Shown in pieces: positions 4,588-52,072 of a stretch of 64,000 nt of DNA. This stretch comes from Alistipes sp. (lineage in GTDB: Bacteria; Bacteroidota; Bacteroidia; Bacteroidales; Rikenellaceae). Under the pieces are notes generated by a model. The model saw nothing but the letters and a program-made list of their open reading frames with translations. It was not told where the DNA came from and ran no database searches. Numbering within the stretch: position 1 is the stretch's first letter; each line of letters starts with the position of its first letter. The DNA lies in contig JAGBTQ010000003.1 in NCBI GenBank assembly GCA_017631275.1, forward strand, positions 62,001 through 126,000, given 5' to 3'. Made by a program: the position numbers and the translations under genes.

Positions 4588-4620
4588 TTTGCACTTTTCG
4601 TGCTAAAGTTTGTACATTTG
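4588..4620 (+). promoter_or_regulatory. Promoter for the YitT-family gene
   Basis: A TTTG at 4588-4591 is followed after 21 bases by TACATTTG at 4613-4620, matching the Bacteroidetes -33/-7 consensus. Transcription would start near 4624, giving a leader of about 60 nt. A second -7-like box, TATCTTTG at 4563-4570, lacks a good -33 partner. Confidence 0.7.
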
Positions 4621-9779: not shown

Positions 9780-9810
9780 CAAATGTATTATTTTTTCGAA
9801 AAATGCCAAA
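9780..9810 (-). promoter_or_regulatory. Promoter for the LytTR regulator
   Basis: On the minus strand TTTG (9810-9807) is followed after 19 bases by TACATTTG (9787-9780), a full match to the Bacteroidetes consensus. The start codon lies about 25 bases beyond the predicted transcription start. Confidence 0.75.
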
Positions 9811-31861: not shown

Positions 31862-31893
31862 TTTGGTAGATTAAAAAACTTGTTATACTTTTG
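31862..31893 (+). promoter_or_regulatory. tRNA-Ser promoter
   Basis: TTTG (31862-31865), 20 bases, then TACTTTTG (31886-31893): a full consensus match ending six bases before the mature tRNA. Confidence 0.8.
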
Positions 31894-32103: not shown

Positions 32104-32135
32104 TTTGTTTTTCTCGGCAATAATATCTATATTTG
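32104..32135 (+). promoter_or_regulatory. Promoter for the clostripain-like gene
   Basis: TTTG (32104-32107), 20 bases, TATATTTG (32128-32135), a full consensus match. Confidence 0.75.
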
Positions 32136-47009: not shown

Positions 47010-48086
47010 CTACTTTGTTAGGCGGTGGTAGTGGCAGACGAGAAGGTTTTCGTCATCGTCGTAGAGGTGCATGCCGTTGCCCTCGCAGTATTGCCACATC
47101 TTGCAGTCGGCACACTTGCCCTTCTTTGCCCACGCACGGTTGCGGAACTTCTCGAAGCGGTTTTGCCACACGTCCCAGAAGCTATCCTTATAAATATTGC
47201 CCTGCGTGAAGTTGGCACGTACCGACGTGCAGCCCGAGATGTCGCCATTGACACGTATCGACGCCACGCCGATGCCTGCATGACACTCGAACGGATTGGT
47301 GCGCACACGTAGCTCGTAGCCCCCAAGGAAGCCCTCGCAGCCATACGAAGCTATGACACGACCCTCCTTTCTACACTCCTCGATAAACTCCATGAGGTAG
47401 GTGAACTCCTCGTCGTTAAGTTGCATAGATAGGTCCTCCGCAGCACGTCCCACAGGGAAGATGGTGAACAAGCGCCACTGGCGCACGCCGAGCGAGTAGA
47501 GAAACTCTTTGAAGCGGTGCAGGTGTGGCAGCAGAGCTGGGGTAACGCACGTAACGACATCTGAGGCGAGCTCCTTATCTGCCGATATCATGCGTATAGC
47601 CTCCACAGCGCGACCAAAGCTCTCCTTGTTTTGGCGTATGTGCAGGTGGTGCTCCTCGAAGCCATCGAGCGACACGGTTATAGAGTGCAAGCCCGCACGT
47701 ATGAGCGAGTCGAGCCTCTGGCGTGTGAGTGCCAAACCATTGGTTACCATGCCCCAGGGGTAGCCACGACGGTAGAGGTTGATACCTATCTGCTCGAGGT
47801 CTTTGCGCACGAGCACCTCGCCACCCGACAAGATTACAAGCACCTTGTTGGGGTTTACGTTGGGCGTAATCTCCTTATCTAAGACCTTGAAGAAGTCCTC
47901 GGCGGGCATGTCGCTAAGCGCACTATCCACACGGCAGTCGCTACCGCAGTGACGACACTGTAGGTTGCAGCGCAGCGTACACTCCCAAAAGAGGGTATTC
48001 AAAATATGCTCCTCAGCACGTATCTTACGTAATTTTTTGAATAGCTTTAGCGCCAGCCACTGACGCATACCAAGTCGTTTTCCCAT
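47010..48086 (-). CDS. Radical SAM/SPASM enzyme, last gene of the lipoprotein operon
   Basis: The 358-residue protein has the radical SAM cluster site C40-X3-C44-X2-C47 (CNLQCRHC), LSGGEVLVRKDL, and a C-terminal SPASM region with cysteines in FECHAG, SGCTS, KCADC, QYCEGN and LVCHYH that could hold two auxiliary clusters. SPASM enzymes usually modify peptides or proteins. I recall a Bacteroidetes radical SAM family (TIGR04133) that pairs with small lipoproteins (TIGR04134), and this gene with its neighbours matches that description. It ends an eight-gene operon; the preceding lipoprotein gene stops six bases upstream. Confidence 0.88.
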   Translation of the reverse strand: MGKRLGMRQWLALKLFKKLRKIRAEEHILNTLFWECTLRCNLQCRHCGSDCRVDSALSDMPAEDFFKVLDKEITPNVNPNKVLVILSGGEVLVRKDLEQIGINLYRRGYPWGMVTNGLALTRQRLDSLIRAGLHSITVSLDGFEEHHLHIRQNKESFGRAVEAIRMISADKELASDVVTCVTPALLPHLHRFKEFLYSLGVRQWRLFTIFPVGRAAEDLSMQLNDEEFTYLMEFIEECRKEGRVIASYGCEGFLGGYELRVRTNPFECHAGIGVASIRVNGDISGCTSVRANFTQGNIYKDSFWDVWQNRFEKFRNRAWAKKGKCADCKMWQYCEGNGMHLYDDDENLLVCHYHRLTK

Positions 48087-48092
48087 AGCTCG

Positions 48093-48449
48093 TTACTCTT
48101 TCTGTTTGCGCTCAAGTACAATATCGCCCACGTCGTTGGGGCCATAATACAACAGGTCGATATCCTTGCGTTCGAACTCGCCACCATTCTCCTCGCCGTC
48201 GATGTCGATGAGTGTGAGCTTGCTATAGTCGAAGCTTTCGACGTAGAAGTGGCCGTTGGCCTTCGTGAGCACCTTGTTTGTGCCTACCGATGCCTCAATG
48301 CCCGGGATAGGCTCGCCCGCCTCATCAACGACACGTCCCGATGCGCCAAAGTATGGCTTAAACTCTTCGTAGGGTGTGCCGTAGCATGCCACGCATGTTA
48401 GCGTGATGCCAAAGAGCGCAAATAGCTTAGTTAAAATTCGTCCCCACAT
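48093..48449 (-). CDS. Radical SAM-associated putative lipoprotein 1
   Basis: The 118-residue lipoprotein has a lipid-attachment Cys at 22 (TCVAC), immediately followed by YGTP (23-26). The body is one beta-rich, carboxypeptidase-regulatory-like domain: VVDEAGEPIPGI (about 40-51), then IDIDGEENGGEFE, and a final VGDIVLERK. These three blocks occur in the same order in the lipoproteins at 48468, 48878 and 51571. The likely role is as a surface protein modified by the radical SAM enzymes of this operon, but that is inference. Confidence 0.85.
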   Translation of the reverse strand: MWGRILTKLFALFGITLTCVACYGTPYEEFKPYFGASGRVVDEAGEPIPGIEASVGTNKVLTKANGHFYVESFDYSKLTLIDIDGEENGGEFERKDIDLLYYGPNDVGDIVLERKQKE

Positions 48450-48467
48450 AGTATCAAATATTTAGGT

Positions 48468-48875
48468 TTACATTATTCTTTTTAGCACTATCGTTCCTAT
48501 GTCAACAAGGCTGCTACCCGAATAGCCCCACTCGTCGGGCTTGATTGGGGGTGTCACCTTGTCGGTGATATCTACCGATAGACTCTCATACTCGCCTCTG
48601 TTGTGCTCGCCATCGACATCCTCGAAGCGTATAACCCAGCGGTTGCGTGGCGCAAGATGGGTAAATCCTCCAAACTTACCTTCGTAGTCGGTATATCCCT
48701 CACGACCAGCAAAGTCGCCGCCCTCGGGGTAGGCATGAATGCCCTGAATGGGCTCGCCCGCCTCATCGACAACGGTGCCATAGACCGTGAGCACGTAGTA
48801 AGGCTCATGCTTCTCCTCGCAGCCCACAAGCGTGAGCAATGCTAATGCAAATATACAAAAAATAGATTTACGCAT
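48468..48875 (-). CDS. Radical SAM-associated putative lipoprotein 2
   Basis: This 135-residue lipoprotein has its lipid Cys at 19 (LTLVGC). It has the shared blocks VVDEAGEPIQGI, FEDVDGEHNRGEYE and DIGTIVLKR, with YGT running directly into the first block in place of the separate YGTP seen in its relatives. The longer loop between the second and third blocks is rich in Pro and Asp. It lies two bases downstream of the gene at 48878, so translation may be coupled. Confidence 0.85.
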   Translation of the reverse strand: MRKSIFCIFALALLTLVGCEEKHEPYYVLTVYGTVVDEAGEPIQGIHAYPEGGDFAGREGYTDYEGKFGGFTHLAPRNRWVIRFEDVDGEHNRGEYESLSVDITDKVTPPIKPDEWGYSGSSLVDIGTIVLKRIM

Positions 48876-48877
48876 AG

Positions 48878-49348
48878 CTACTCCTCCTCAGTGTTAGTGT
48901 TTTCCTCCTCTGTGCTCTCAGGCTCAAGGGTCATCACCACATCGCCAATCTCGGCAACGTAGCTACCATTATCCCAGTTGCCGTCGCCCTCGTCGGTCTG
49001 CACGATGTGGTCGCTGATGTCCACCGTCTTACTCTCGAACTTACCGCCATTAGCCTCGCCGTCGGGGTCTATGAAGATAATCGTGTGATCCATGCTATGC
49101 ATATTTCCCGTGTGTGCATCTATCTCGCCAAGGTAGTTGGTTACTCCTGTGCGGTTGTCGAAAGGTGTGTAGTGGTCGCCCCAGTCCACCTTAACACGTG
49201 CCTCGATGCCCTCGATAGGCTTGCCAGCCTCATCAACAACACGTGCCTTAAGGTTGAAGTGTACGTGAGGCGTGCCATACTCAACCCTCATACAACCCGT
49301 AGCACTGATGCCAAGTAGGGCGAGAAGCATGTATAAAAGCTTTTTCAT
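48878..49348 (-). CDS. Radical SAM-associated putative lipoprotein 3
   Basis: The 156-residue lipoprotein has its lipid Cys at 19 (SATGC) and YGTP at 24-27. It has the shared blocks VVDEAGKPIEGI, IDPDGEANGGKFE and EIGDVVMTLE. It ends in an acidic tail of Glu, Thr and Asn that its shorter relatives lack. The nearest relative in the operon is the protein at 51571 (same VMTL ending and DxGxGxW loop). Confidence 0.87.
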   Translation of the reverse strand: MKKLLYMLLALLGISATGCMRVEYGTPHVHFNLKARVVDEAGKPIEGIEARVKVDWGDHYTPFDNRTGVTNYLGEIDAHTGNMHSMDHTIIFIDPDGEANGGKFESKTVDISDHIVQTDEGDGNWDNGSYVAEIGDVVMTLEPESTEEENTNTEEE

Positions 49349-49370
49349 ATCGTTTAAGTTTTATAGTTTA

Positions 49371-49997
49371 TTAATATTCGTTGCACCCCTTGCCGCCTCG
49401 CCAGCAAACACGGCAGTCGGTGAATGTGCCCTTGCGAAGCTCTATCGTATCGTCCTGCTCGCTGCGACCTCTAAACGAGAACTCGCCCGAGAAGAGGCAA
49501 CCCGACGAGCCGTATGGCTCCTGCTCGCGGAATATTATCCAGCCGTCTATGGCGTGGTAGCTGTAGGTAACAATGTCGGTTACGGTGCCACCACCAGGCA
49601 GAGGTGTCGAGGCTCCTTGCTCCCTAAAGCTGATGCATGCTCGCGAGCCCTCAACATCTATGAGCGTATATACCTTGTCGAGCTCGAATGTCGAGTCCTC
49701 GAAGTCGATGTCAATGTCGAGCATTGCGCCAATGCCCACCGTCGAGTCGAGCTCGCGATATAGCTCGAAGCTAAAGCCGCCACCCTCACGAATTACTATC
49801 TCGGGGTGGTTGTGGTCGGTGAAATATCCCGTGTTGCTCGTAAAGAGTGTCGAGCGAAAGTCGTAGCGAGAGCCGCTAAGCTCCACAGATATTGGAGCAT
49901 CGGTATCGACACCAAATAGGCTGTAAAAATCCTTCTTGCAACCCACCGTAAGGAGTAGCGAGAGAAGCACGAAGCAGTATCGAAGCCAAGTTCTCAT
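49371..49997 (-). CDS. Lipoprotein with Cys-rich C-terminus, function unknown
   Basis: This 208-residue protein has a lipoprotein signal (LLLTVGC, lipid Cys 20). Its body is beta-rich and unlike the four VVDEAG lipoproteins. The C-terminus is unusual: DCRVCWRGGKGCNEY in the last 16 residues, with three cysteines plus Trp, Arg and Gly. It looks like a metal site, a disulfide knot or a target for modification. It sits between the second radical SAM enzyme (18 bases) and lipoprotein 3. I do not recognise the family. Confidence 0.75.
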   Translation of the reverse strand: MRTWLRYCFVLLSLLLTVGCKKDFYSLFGVDTDAPISVELSGSRYDFRSTLFTSNTGYFTDHNHPEIVIREGGGFSFELYRELDSTVGIGAMLDIDIDFEDSTFELDKVYTLIDVEGSRACISFREQGASTPLPGGGTVTDIVTYSYHAIDGWIIFREQEPYGSSGCLFSGEFSFRGRSEQDDTIELRKGTFTDCRVCWRGGKGCNEY

Positions 49998-50015
49998 ATA
50001 ACAAATATATAAAAA

Positions 50016-51050
50016 TTATTCGTTCGTGGTGTTCATCACAGGGTCTATTCTGTCGAACGTGCCATACATCTGCTCCGACGCGGCACGACAACCGCCACGG
50101 CACCTCTGCCATAGCTTGCACCCTGCACAGCTCTCGGGCACGCTGTCGAAGTATCCGTCCGAGGCTGAGCGCTCGATAATCGAGCGTAGCGACTCAGAGT
50201 ATATGTTGCCCAGCACACGTGGCGAGTGGTTGCAGAAGCGAACATCGCCACGATAGTTCACCGTGAGCGGGCGACTGCTAAGGTCGGTCGAGCAGTTGGT
50301 AAATATTATGTGGGGGTACTCCTTCGGGTCGAGCAAACACATTGGCGTACATACGCCGCTATGTATGGTCATCTTAAGCTCCGCGGCCATCGCATCTACT
50401 CGTCGAAAGGCGTTGCGCAGCTCGTCATGCGTGAGCGTTAGCTCCTTATGATATACCTTGCCTAAGCCTCCGATGTTGAAGCGGTTGACCATGATGTAGC
50501 GACACCCCATCTCGGCATACATGCGCATGGTGGGCTCTATGGCGTCGTAGTTTAGGCGTGAGAGTATCAGCACGGGCGTTAGCCAACCCTCTTTTCTCTC
50601 TGCTACGCGGCGTGCTGCTGTTGTAGCACGAAGCCACGAGCCACAAAGTTGTGTTATGCTGTCGTGGATGTCGGCATTGTGGCTAAGCATAGGTATTTGC
50701 AGTGTGCCTACGCCAAGGTCGTCAAATATTGCTATGTCGTTGTCGGTAAGCAGAGTGCCATTTGTCAAGATATTGACGTTGCTTCCCGCCATGCGGGCAC
50801 GTAGCACAAGGTCGTGGATGCGTGGTAGGAGCATGGGCTCGCCTCCAGACAATGATAGCGAGCCTATGCGTGCCTCGCTAAGTAGGCGCTTTAGTGTGCG
50901 TCGTGCAAGGCGGAAGTTGGGCGCCTCGACCAGGCATGTGCCCTCGCCCTTTAAGTGGTTGTAGCAGAACTTACACGCCTGATTACAAGCATCGGTAAGC
51001 TCGAATACCACGATGCCAATATCTAACTTATCGCCACGACGAAACCACAT
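50016..51050 (-). CDS. Second radical SAM/SPASM enzyme
   Basis: The 344-residue protein has the radical SAM site C22-X3-C26-X2-C29 (CNQACKFC), LSLSGGEPML, and a SPASM region with cysteines in FTNCS, RFCNH, CAGCKLWQRC and GGCRA. It is clearly distinct from the enzyme at 47010, so the operon contains two divergent enzymes and not a duplicate. It follows the membrane-type protein at 51052 with one base between them, and precedes the Cys-tailed lipoprotein, one of which may be its substrate. Confidence 0.88.
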   Translation of the reverse strand: MWFRRGDKLDIGIVVFELTDACNQACKFCYNHLKGEGTCLVEAPNFRLARRTLKRLLSEARIGSLSLSGGEPMLLPRIHDLVLRARMAGSNVNILTNGTLLTDNDIAIFDDLGVGTLQIPMLSHNADIHDSITQLCGSWLRATTAARRVAERKEGWLTPVLILSRLNYDAIEPTMRMYAEMGCRYIMVNRFNIGGLGKVYHKELTLTHDELRNAFRRVDAMAAELKMTIHSGVCTPMCLLDPKEYPHIIFTNCSTDLSSRPLTVNYRGDVRFCNHSPRVLGNIYSESLRSIIERSASDGYFDSVPESCAGCKLWQRCRGGCRAASEQMYGTFDRIDPVMNTTNE

Positions 51051-51051
51051 A

Positions 51052-51549
51052 TTACTCCACGATTACGAAGTCTAAAGCCAACTCGATAGGCTCATTCTCA
51101 TAGACATTGTAGCACACCTTTAGCGTAGCCTTGCCACGATAGTCGCCAACATTGAGTATAAAGTGAATATACTCATCAGCAGGCTCAAGTGTGAGCACCT
51201 CGCTCTGAAGCTCTACACCCTCTTCCGAGAGCACGCTAAGCGAGAGGGTAGCAGCAAAGTCGAAGGCGTAGTAGATGTTAATCTCGTCGCCATTGCGGAA
51301 CTCTGTGCCAACATTTGCGTTGATGTGTACCTCGTTGTGTGGAGGTGGTGCAGGGTCGTAGCAGCTAACCATAAAGCCACCATTCTCACAGCTTGCCAAA
51401 GACGTGAGGCTCACGAGGGTGAGTATTGCGCCACCCAAGCGGAACTTGGCTCTTATGGCCTTGGCACTGCGACCGCCACTGAGCATAACCCAGAGCGATG
51501 CACCAACAAAGGCGATACCCAAGCCGATAAGCATTATTGTACGTTTCAT
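51052..51549 (-). CDS. Exported protein with two N-terminal hydrophobic segments
   Basis: The 165-residue protein opens with a membrane helix (about 5-24), a short basic loop (RSAKAIRAKFR), and a second hydrophobic stretch ending SLTSLASCENG, which resembles a lipobox at about residue 53. A CYDPAPPP motif near residue 62 follows, and the rest is a beta-sandwich-like domain. The odd start could be a true two-helix anchor or mean that translation begins later. It overlaps nothing and lies one base before the second radical SAM gene, so the two are probably coupled. I do not recognise the family. Confidence 0.72.
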   Translation of the reverse strand: MKRTIMLIGLGIAFVGASLWVMLSGGRSAKAIRAKFRLGGAILTLVSLTSLASCENGGFMVSCYDPAPPPHNEVHINANVGTEFRNGDEINIYYAFDFAATLSLSVLSEEGVELQSEVLTLEPADEYIHFILNVGDYRGKATLKVCYNVYENEPIELALDFVIVE

Positions 51550-51570
51550 AACCTATATATATTATATGTT

Positions 51571-52011
51571 TTACTTCTGCTCGTCACTCTCTTCTTTGAG
51601 CGTCATCACTACGTCGCCAAGGTCGGCCTTATAACCACCCTCATACCAGCTACCAGAGCCCTCTTCTACCTGCTCAACCTTGTCTGCGATGTTGAGTTCC
51701 AATGTCTCGAACTCGCCACCATTCTCCGCACCATCTACATCGGTGAAGACCAGATCAATGTTAGTGTCGGGCCACATGCCCACCTTAAGGTCGATATTAC
51801 CCTCAGCATCGGAGTAGTTGTCCGCGTAGAAGGCGTTCCTATTGGTCTGCACCTCGATACCCTCGATAGGCTTGCCCGCCTCATCTATGACACGAGCCTT
51901 AAGCGAAAAGGTCATAGTGGGACAGCCATACTCCACAACAGTGTGGCTGCCATTGCATGCTACAGCACCAAAACCAAGTAGCGAAAGTAGGAAATAGATA
52001 AATCGTTTCAT
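51571..52011 (-). CDS. Radical SAM-associated putative lipoprotein 4, first gene of the operon
   Basis: The 146-residue lipoprotein has its lipid Cys at 19 (GAVAC) and YGCP at 28-31, the variant of YGTP with Cys in place of Thr. It has the shared blocks VIDEAGKPIEGI, TDVDGAENGGEFE and DLGDVVMTLK. It leads the operon, about 20 bases after the predicted transcription start. Together with the proteins at 48093, 48468 and 48878 it forms a set of four paralogues, pointing to local expansion of the substrate. Confidence 0.87.
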   Translation of the reverse strand: MKRFIYFLLSLLGFGAVACNGSHTVVEYGCPTMTFSLKARVIDEAGKPIEGIEVQTNRNAFYADNYSDAEGNIDLKVGMWPDTNIDLVFTDVDGAENGGEFETLELNIADKVEQVEEGSGSWYEGGYKADLGDVVMTLKEESDEQK

Positions 52012-52040: not shown

Positions 52041-52072
52041 CAAAGTTACTACTCAAAGAGTAGGATGCCAAA
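52041..52072 (-). promoter_or_regulatory. Promoter of the radical SAM/lipoprotein operon
   Basis: On the minus strand TTTG (52072-52069) is followed after 20 bases by TAACTTTG (52048-52041), a full consensus match. Transcription would start near 52037, giving a leader of about 25 nt. Confidence 0.8.

Follow-up and report, generated by a model that had tools for sequence, protein, structure and literature searches.

What do two different radical S-adenosylmethionine (SAM) enzymes do in a single row of genes that otherwise encodes small exported proteins? The question is raised by a locus in Alistipes sp. (GenBank assembly GCA_017631275.1, contig JAGBTQ010000003.1, positions 62,001 to 126,000, a stretch of 64,000 nucleotides that is called the window throughout). 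The locus consists of eight minus-strand open reading frames (ORFs), which run from position 52011 to position 47010 in the order A-B-C-D-E-F-G-H (Table 1). We consider it probable that these genes form two radical SAM protein-modification modules on one transcript, in which H excises tyramine at an Xaa-Tyr-Gly (XYG) sequence of lipoproteins and C acts at a Cys-Tyr (CY) site. From the sequence comparisons presented here, two joined radical SAM/substrate modules describe the operon better than one enlarged pair does, because C and B belong to a separate family that is found elsewhere away from TIGR04133, the family of H, and because H is paired with XYG lipoproteins.

TIGR04133 enzymes, their XYG partners, and PlpX

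The scores of H, A, and E were above the curated cut-offs of TIGR04133 (H) and TIGR04134 (A and E), and those of F and G were slightly below the cut-off of TIGR04134 (Table 1). By these profile scores, the pairing of the two families that a first-pass annotation of the window had named is correct. The NCBIfam entries for the pair state no chemistry, and the operon differs from the pair by the addition of a second enzyme (C), its partner (B), and D. Among 295 genomes sampled in the order, TIGR04133 was above cut-off in 61 and TIGR04134 in 40. The annotation had named lipoproteins kept without the enzyme as the refuting case, and this case was found to be rare: TIGR04133 was above cut-off in 38 of the 40 genomes with TIGR04134, and of the two exceptions one (G288) has a TIGR04133 match of 355 bits, below the cut-off, and the other (G227) has none.

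The neighborhoods of 61 TIGR04133 enzymes were compared (60 of the 72 above-cut-off matches and one below; the H of the window was left out). A script found a same-strand neighbor with the sequence Tyr-Gly-any residue-Pro (YG.P) within 2 kb at 52 of 59 loci, versus 11 of 451 control genes. In a stricter recount, in which the partner had to be an exported same-strand ORF of <330 amino acids with YG.P at a distance of ≤2 kb, 50 of the 61 loci were positive; the opposite strand gave 3 of 61. Inspection by eye added four loci with ACYG[TVM]P proteins below the hydropathy threshold (L116, L119, L120, and L123) and one with a YG.P partner 2.4 kb upstream of the enzyme (L125), which brought the total to 55 of 61. 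Counted per gene, YG.P was present in 58 of 88 operonic exported genes of these loci versus 4 of 131 control exported genes.

At the X of XYG, the main residues are E, K, M, and C. The position that follows the Gly is occupied by T, S, V, A, I, C, M, P, G, N, or F, and the Gly directly after the Tyr is retained even where the Pro is absent. Several TIGR04133 enzymes are paired with lipoproteins other than TIGR04134: 14 of the 68 YG.P neighbors shorter than 300 amino acids had no TIGR04134-like match at an E value of 0.01. Thirteen of these are plausible partners, of which 12 pass the hydropathy test and the other (L103_2) fails it and looks lipobox-like; the 14th protein is sigma-factor-like. 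The XYG partners in the window are A, E, and G. In the structure model of A (mean predicted local distance difference test score (pLDDT) 80.4), a beta-sandwich that starts at residue 33 is modeled with confidence, and residues 18-27, just before Y28-G29, are of low confidence. This suggests that the motif, in the stalk, could be reached by an enzyme. Foldseek matches of A were weak, and the best covered of them was 9hfj, a SusC NTE domain.

The genome of the window has a second TIGR04133 enzyme (L066:4479-5552, on G000:C23), which is 62% identical to H, and a short lipoprotein with MYGVP is encoded directly before it (L066:4113-4457). In the G-type lipoproteins of L132 and L135, ACYA replaces ACYG, with the loss of the Gly and the retention of Cys-Tyr, and therefore only the CY site would be possible there.

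A chemistry for H is suggested by its relatedness to the PlpX class of spliceases. According to excerpts of two papers, PlpX together with PlpY excises tyramine from Xaa-Tyr-Gly to leave a ketoamide (PMC11002830, PMC10533398), with a mass loss of 135.0757 Da (PMC10533398), and the PlpX class is IPR026482, nif11-class peptide radical SAM maturase 3 (PMC11002830). A Nostoc sp. C057 plasmid encodes a Nif11 precursor that ends in SIALYGLPPELF, and the gene after it carries the annotation nif11-class peptide radical SAM maturase 3. The C-terminus of this precursor, LYGLPPELF, has XYG and Pro spaced as in the TIGR04133 lipoproteins. This maturase class (IPR026482) is presumably the same as TIGR04103.

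The enzyme of locus L217 scored 178 bits with TIGR04133 and 218 bits with TIGR04103, and the protein encoded after it has six KYGYP repeats (L217:4428-6559). TIGR04133 was the third-best NCBIfam model for the TIGR04103-like enzymes of L213, L214, L216, and L222 and the fourth-best for that of L217. The sequence HCGS follows the radical SAM cysteines in 59 of 59 TIGR04133 enzymes and 12 of 12 PlpX-class or GDL enzymes, versus none of the 16 other tree rows (7 of them from the C-type family, denoted rSAM1) and none of 88 rSAM1 enzymes. TIGR04133 and the PlpX class formed one clade (support 99/96) in a tree of 37 rows, from which six rows of a first tree had been left out (L002, L003, L006, L008 from the genome of the window, L231, and L218); five of these were long-branch or odd-composition rows chosen from the output of the first tree, and one was an own-genome row joined to them. 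The support was 100/99 in a tree of 43 rows, to which an AhbD-like outgroup and plasmid-borne enzymes (PlpX-class, GDL, and related) had been added; the outgroup set is thin. No result puts C near H.

The PlpX/PlpY system and H thus share the XYG partner motif, HCGS, and a clade. They differ in that the PlpX/PlpY partners are Nif11/NHLP-leader peptides, whereas those of H are exported lipoproteins. The GDL-motif maturases (TIGR03913, with DUF1843 peptides) also have HCGS, and several, not all, of their small peptides have PYG or LYG near the N-terminus; these peptides have no signal sequence, in contrast to the lipoprotein partners of H. By analogy with PlpX, we propose that TIGR04133 enzymes install backbone ketoamides in lipoproteins. 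On a plasmid of Agathobacter rectalis, a PlpX-class-like enzyme (L235:2983-4137) follows a small ORF (L235:2695-2901) that ends in PVMYGTGVRM and is, from its sequence, a possible spliceotide precursor.

C-type enzymes, CY partners, and the joined operon

C scored 38.9 bits with TIGR04133, below the cut-off of 425, and none of the best 25 of its 78 NCBIfam matches (E up to 1) was above its own cut-off; the best among these 25 was GeoRSP_rSAM, at 96.9 of 400 bits. PqqE, SkfB, and the GeoRSP enzymes share the SPASM architecture and were the best matches for C. The scores of PqqE, GeoRSP, and others among the best 25 were far below the curated cut-offs, however, and C is set apart by its CY partners and by two sequences, CYN directly behind the radical cysteines and CNHS within the SPASM region, both of which are present in all 88 C-type enzymes. 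No Pfam or NCBIfam family was above cut-off for B or D, and no further copy of B was found in its own genome.

C-type enzymes were found at an E value of 1e-35 in 14 of the 295 genomes of the order, that of the window included. An H-type gene is absent from all 13 other stretches, which were fetched at up to 14 kb, and most of these stretches have one to four B-type genes directly upstream of the enzyme. The B-type proteins have in common a membrane segment, a basic stretch with a K-x-K-I-G-like end, a second hydrophobic segment, and the CY motif, and the rest is variable; TonB_C was above the Pfam cut-off in 4 of the 10 that were scanned. At L053, L055, L064, and L065, the CY motif of some B-type proteins is followed by a TonB C-terminal domain.

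A scan of genome contigs with 14 C-type enzymes returned at least 379 relatives confirmed by tblastn, of which 80 were kept. A contiguous exported neighbor with CY was detected by script at 60 of 80 distinct loci, versus 28 of 147 other exported genes. By-eye rescue added seven loci that had been missed and four of five loci at which the script had missed the enzyme, for a total of 71 of 85. Seven of the other 14 have no upstream sequence (L060, L138, L150, L183, L189, L205, and L206), and L191 has CH. Across 133 CY sites, drawn from 98 proteins, the consensus was P-x-V-[T/S]-C-Y-[D/E]-P, and 34 of the 98 proteins have at least two CY. Together with the XYG motif, these short sequences common to exported partners lend good support to the proposal, made in the first-pass annotation, of a protein-modification system.

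Tandem exported proteins, most of them with one to three CY and with tails that are otherwise unlike, are encoded at L181:2901-4756, L192:3304-4439, and L203:4512-7975; some of these partners are short and have two or three CY. At L191:3842-5001, five tandem short exported proteins have TCH-type motifs where their relatives have TCY, and one partner at L192 has S-C-D instead of S-C-Y.

The order of all eight genes is intact in two contigs from Alistipes metagenome-assembled genomes (L127 and L128), in which C is 88% identical and H is 95-96% identical. Four further Alistipes loci have both modules in other orders, namely D-G-A-B-C-H (L129), B-C-(gene)-A-A-G-H (L130), G-B-C-H (L132), and F-B-D-A-F-(gene)-G-B-C-H (L135), which makes six in total. 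No H-type match was found in the sequence examined at the remaining kept rSAM1 loci, where several contigs are short. The annotation had viewed the second enzyme as going beyond a simple pair; the extra enzyme is real, but it is better viewed as part of a second module than of one enlarged pair, given that C and B are found away from TIGR04133 in 13 other genomes of the order.

Proposed reactions and competing explanations

We infer the following substrates, chemistry, and order of events. Before Sec export, H would work in the cytoplasm on the pre-lipoproteins A, E, and probably G. Within the stalk that joins the lipid anchor to the folded domain, the tyramine part of the Tyr of X-Tyr-Gly would be excised and the chain rejoined, and the resulting alpha-keto-beta-amino (ketoamide) residue would then be displayed on the cell envelope. 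C would act, also before Sec export, on the Cys-Tyr of B and perhaps of G; our guess from the sequences is a Cys-centered link, most likely one such as a thioether. The membrane or signal segment is probably the recognition leader in both modules. A ketoamide would be an electrophile that could trap or inhibit surface proteases. The products of spliceases are termed protease inhibitors in an excerpt of one paper (PMC11117315), a label that suggests a surface protease trap.

Several results weigh against this reading. H scored 96 bits with TIGR04103, for which the cut-off is 725. PlpY, with which PlpX works, is a protein of the type of the recognition element (RRE) of ribosomally synthesized and post-translationally modified peptides (RiPPs), and no RRE-type model matched any of the eight operon proteins in NCBIfam and Pfam, the rest of the genome not having been searched. 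The relation of TIGR04133 to the PlpX class was not settled in the first tree (43 rows), L218, which was dropped from the later trees, is itself a PlpX-class hit, and three alternative groupings were rejected only at p-AU values of 0.0255, 0.025, and 0.0217. Among the 61 TIGR04133 loci, a credible partner with XYG is absent at L093, L096, and L114, and L107, L108, and L124 have XYG without Pro, which is weak because bare YG is present in 45 of the 131 control exported genes. The control rate for CY is high, and by-eye rescue was applied to the loci and not to the controls. Six rSAM1 loci with room for a CY partner have none (L156, L177, L184, L198, L200, and L201). F and D have neither the XYG nor the CY motif, and the notion that every other gene of the operon encodes a substrate was not supported.

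It is rather unlikely, in our view, that the reaction of H at XYG is a different one, such as a Tyr cross-link, epimerization, or oxidation. SPASM enzymes are diverse in their chemistry, H scores TIGR04053, AhbD, NirJ2, and NirJ above TIGR04103, the stem branch of TIGR04133 is long (1.34 in the 43-row outgroup tree), and no RRE partner was found in the operon. On the other side, the Gly after the Tyr is retained even in the absence of the Pro, HCGS and the common clade tie H to the PlpX-class enzymes, and the occurrence of Gly or Pro two residues after the Tyr speaks against a Tyr cyclophane of three residues that is closed through the beta-carbon at that position. Much less probable is that the enzymes act elsewhere and that YGxP and CY have a role in structure or in sorting. 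Lipoprotein sorting signals are located close to the lipidated Cys, and YGxP is missing from F, which is a paralogue from the same operon. At L103, L106, and L111, however, the motifs are distant from the Cys or close to the C-terminus, they are repeated two to six times in some partners, they recur in partners whose domains have no detectable similarity to one another, and the pairing is far above the same-locus controls.

For module 2, it is possible, but not favored here, that the Tyr (or the Tyr and the next acidic residue) rather than the Cys is modified, as by PqqE or MftC. The profile of C matches the PqqE structure along its length and C scored 81 bits on PqqE in NCBIfam, and D or E follows the Tyr in 60% of the 133 CY sites. 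Against this, the Cys is kept where the Tyr is replaced by His in the five tandem L191 partners and by Asp in the one L192 partner, and the best PDB profile match of C was SkfB, a thioether-forming maturase, over the radical SAM domain only. It is somewhat doubtful that the eight genes are a passing neighborhood and not one functional unit: most of the 80 kept rSAM1 loci have no TIGR04133 enzyme within 5 kb (some of these contigs are cut short), but the six Alistipes loci join both modules in differing orders, the exact order is kept in two of them, and the gaps between genes are short.

If the tyramine-splicing reading of module 1 is true, noncanonical backbone splicing would be widespread as a modification of the cell surface in Bacteroidales of the gut and the environment, beyond natural products, and the TIGR04133/TIGR04134 pair now predicts one mass loss at one tripeptide. 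The second family, with at least 379 relatives and no NCBIfam model above cut-off among the best 25 of 78 for C, has a clear candidate site. We give about an even chance to the broader proposition that many Bacteroidales splice tyramine from the stalks of envelope lipoproteins to produce surface ketoamides whose side chains depend on the residue X (mostly E, K, M, or C), and that in Alistipes this is coupled to an undescribed radical SAM family with Cys-Tyr sites of exported and TonB-domain proteins as its targets. Splicease modification is called widespread in an excerpt of PMC11002830, and the novelty of module 1 is uncertain, as the splicease survey of Scott 2022 may already include these lipoproteins. 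In the main text of a survey of RiPP clusters in Bacteroidales (PMC10352776), neither "lipoprotein" nor "splice" occurs.

Layout of the operon and other features

The first-pass description of eight genes on one strand with gaps of 1-22 bases and a consensus promoter was confirmed, as was the assignment of C and H as radical SAM/SPASM enzymes, both of which are above the Pfam cut-offs for Radical_SAM and SPASM. From A to H, the gaps are 21, 1, 18, 22, 2, 18, and 6 bases. The pattern TTTG-N20-TAACTTTG, which we take to be the Bacteroidetes promoter consensus, occurs 5 times in the window versus 0.34 expected, and 5 or more occurrences were reached in 0 of 100 shuffles. The structure model of D is beta-barrel-like (pLDDT 70.8) and gave no assignment.

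Table 1. Coordinates of the operon genes and of the promoter-like site in the window (aa, amino acids)
Feature	Coordinates	Strand	Description	Evidence
Promoter-like site	52041..52072	-	TTTG-N20-TAACTTTG, just upstream of A	pattern search
A	51571..52011	-	TIGR04134 lipoprotein, 146 aa, stalk motif VEYGCP	81.9 bits with TIGR04134 (cut-off 39.8)
B	51052..51549	-	two-helix exported protein, 165 aa, motif VSCYDPAPPP, proposed substrate of C	
C	50016..51050	-	radical SAM/SPASM enzyme (rSAM1), 344 aa, module 2	Pfam domains
D	49371..49997	-	lipoprotein, 208 aa, C-terminal CxxC...C tail	homologues in L127, L128, L129, L135
E	48878..49348	-	TIGR04134 lipoprotein, 156 aa, motif VEYGTP	81.8 bits with TIGR04134 (cut-off 39.8)
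F	48468..48875	-	TIGR04134-like lipoprotein, 135 aa, EPYYVL replacing YGxP	37.1 bits with TIGR04134, below cut-off (39.8)
G	48093..48449	-	TIGR04134-like lipoprotein, 118 aa, motif ACYGTP (fits XYG and CY)	35.6 bits with TIGR04134, below cut-off (39.8)
H	47010..48086	-	TIGR04133 radical SAM/SPASM enzyme, 358 aa, module 1; CNLQCRHCGSDC	574.5 bits with TIGR04133 (cut-off 425)

Elsewhere in the genome, three radical SAM domain matches lie within 4.5 kb (G000:C26:1628-6085). The four other full-pattern promoter-like sites of the window are at 4588-4620 (+), 9780-9810 (-), 31862-31893 (+), and 32104-32135 (+).

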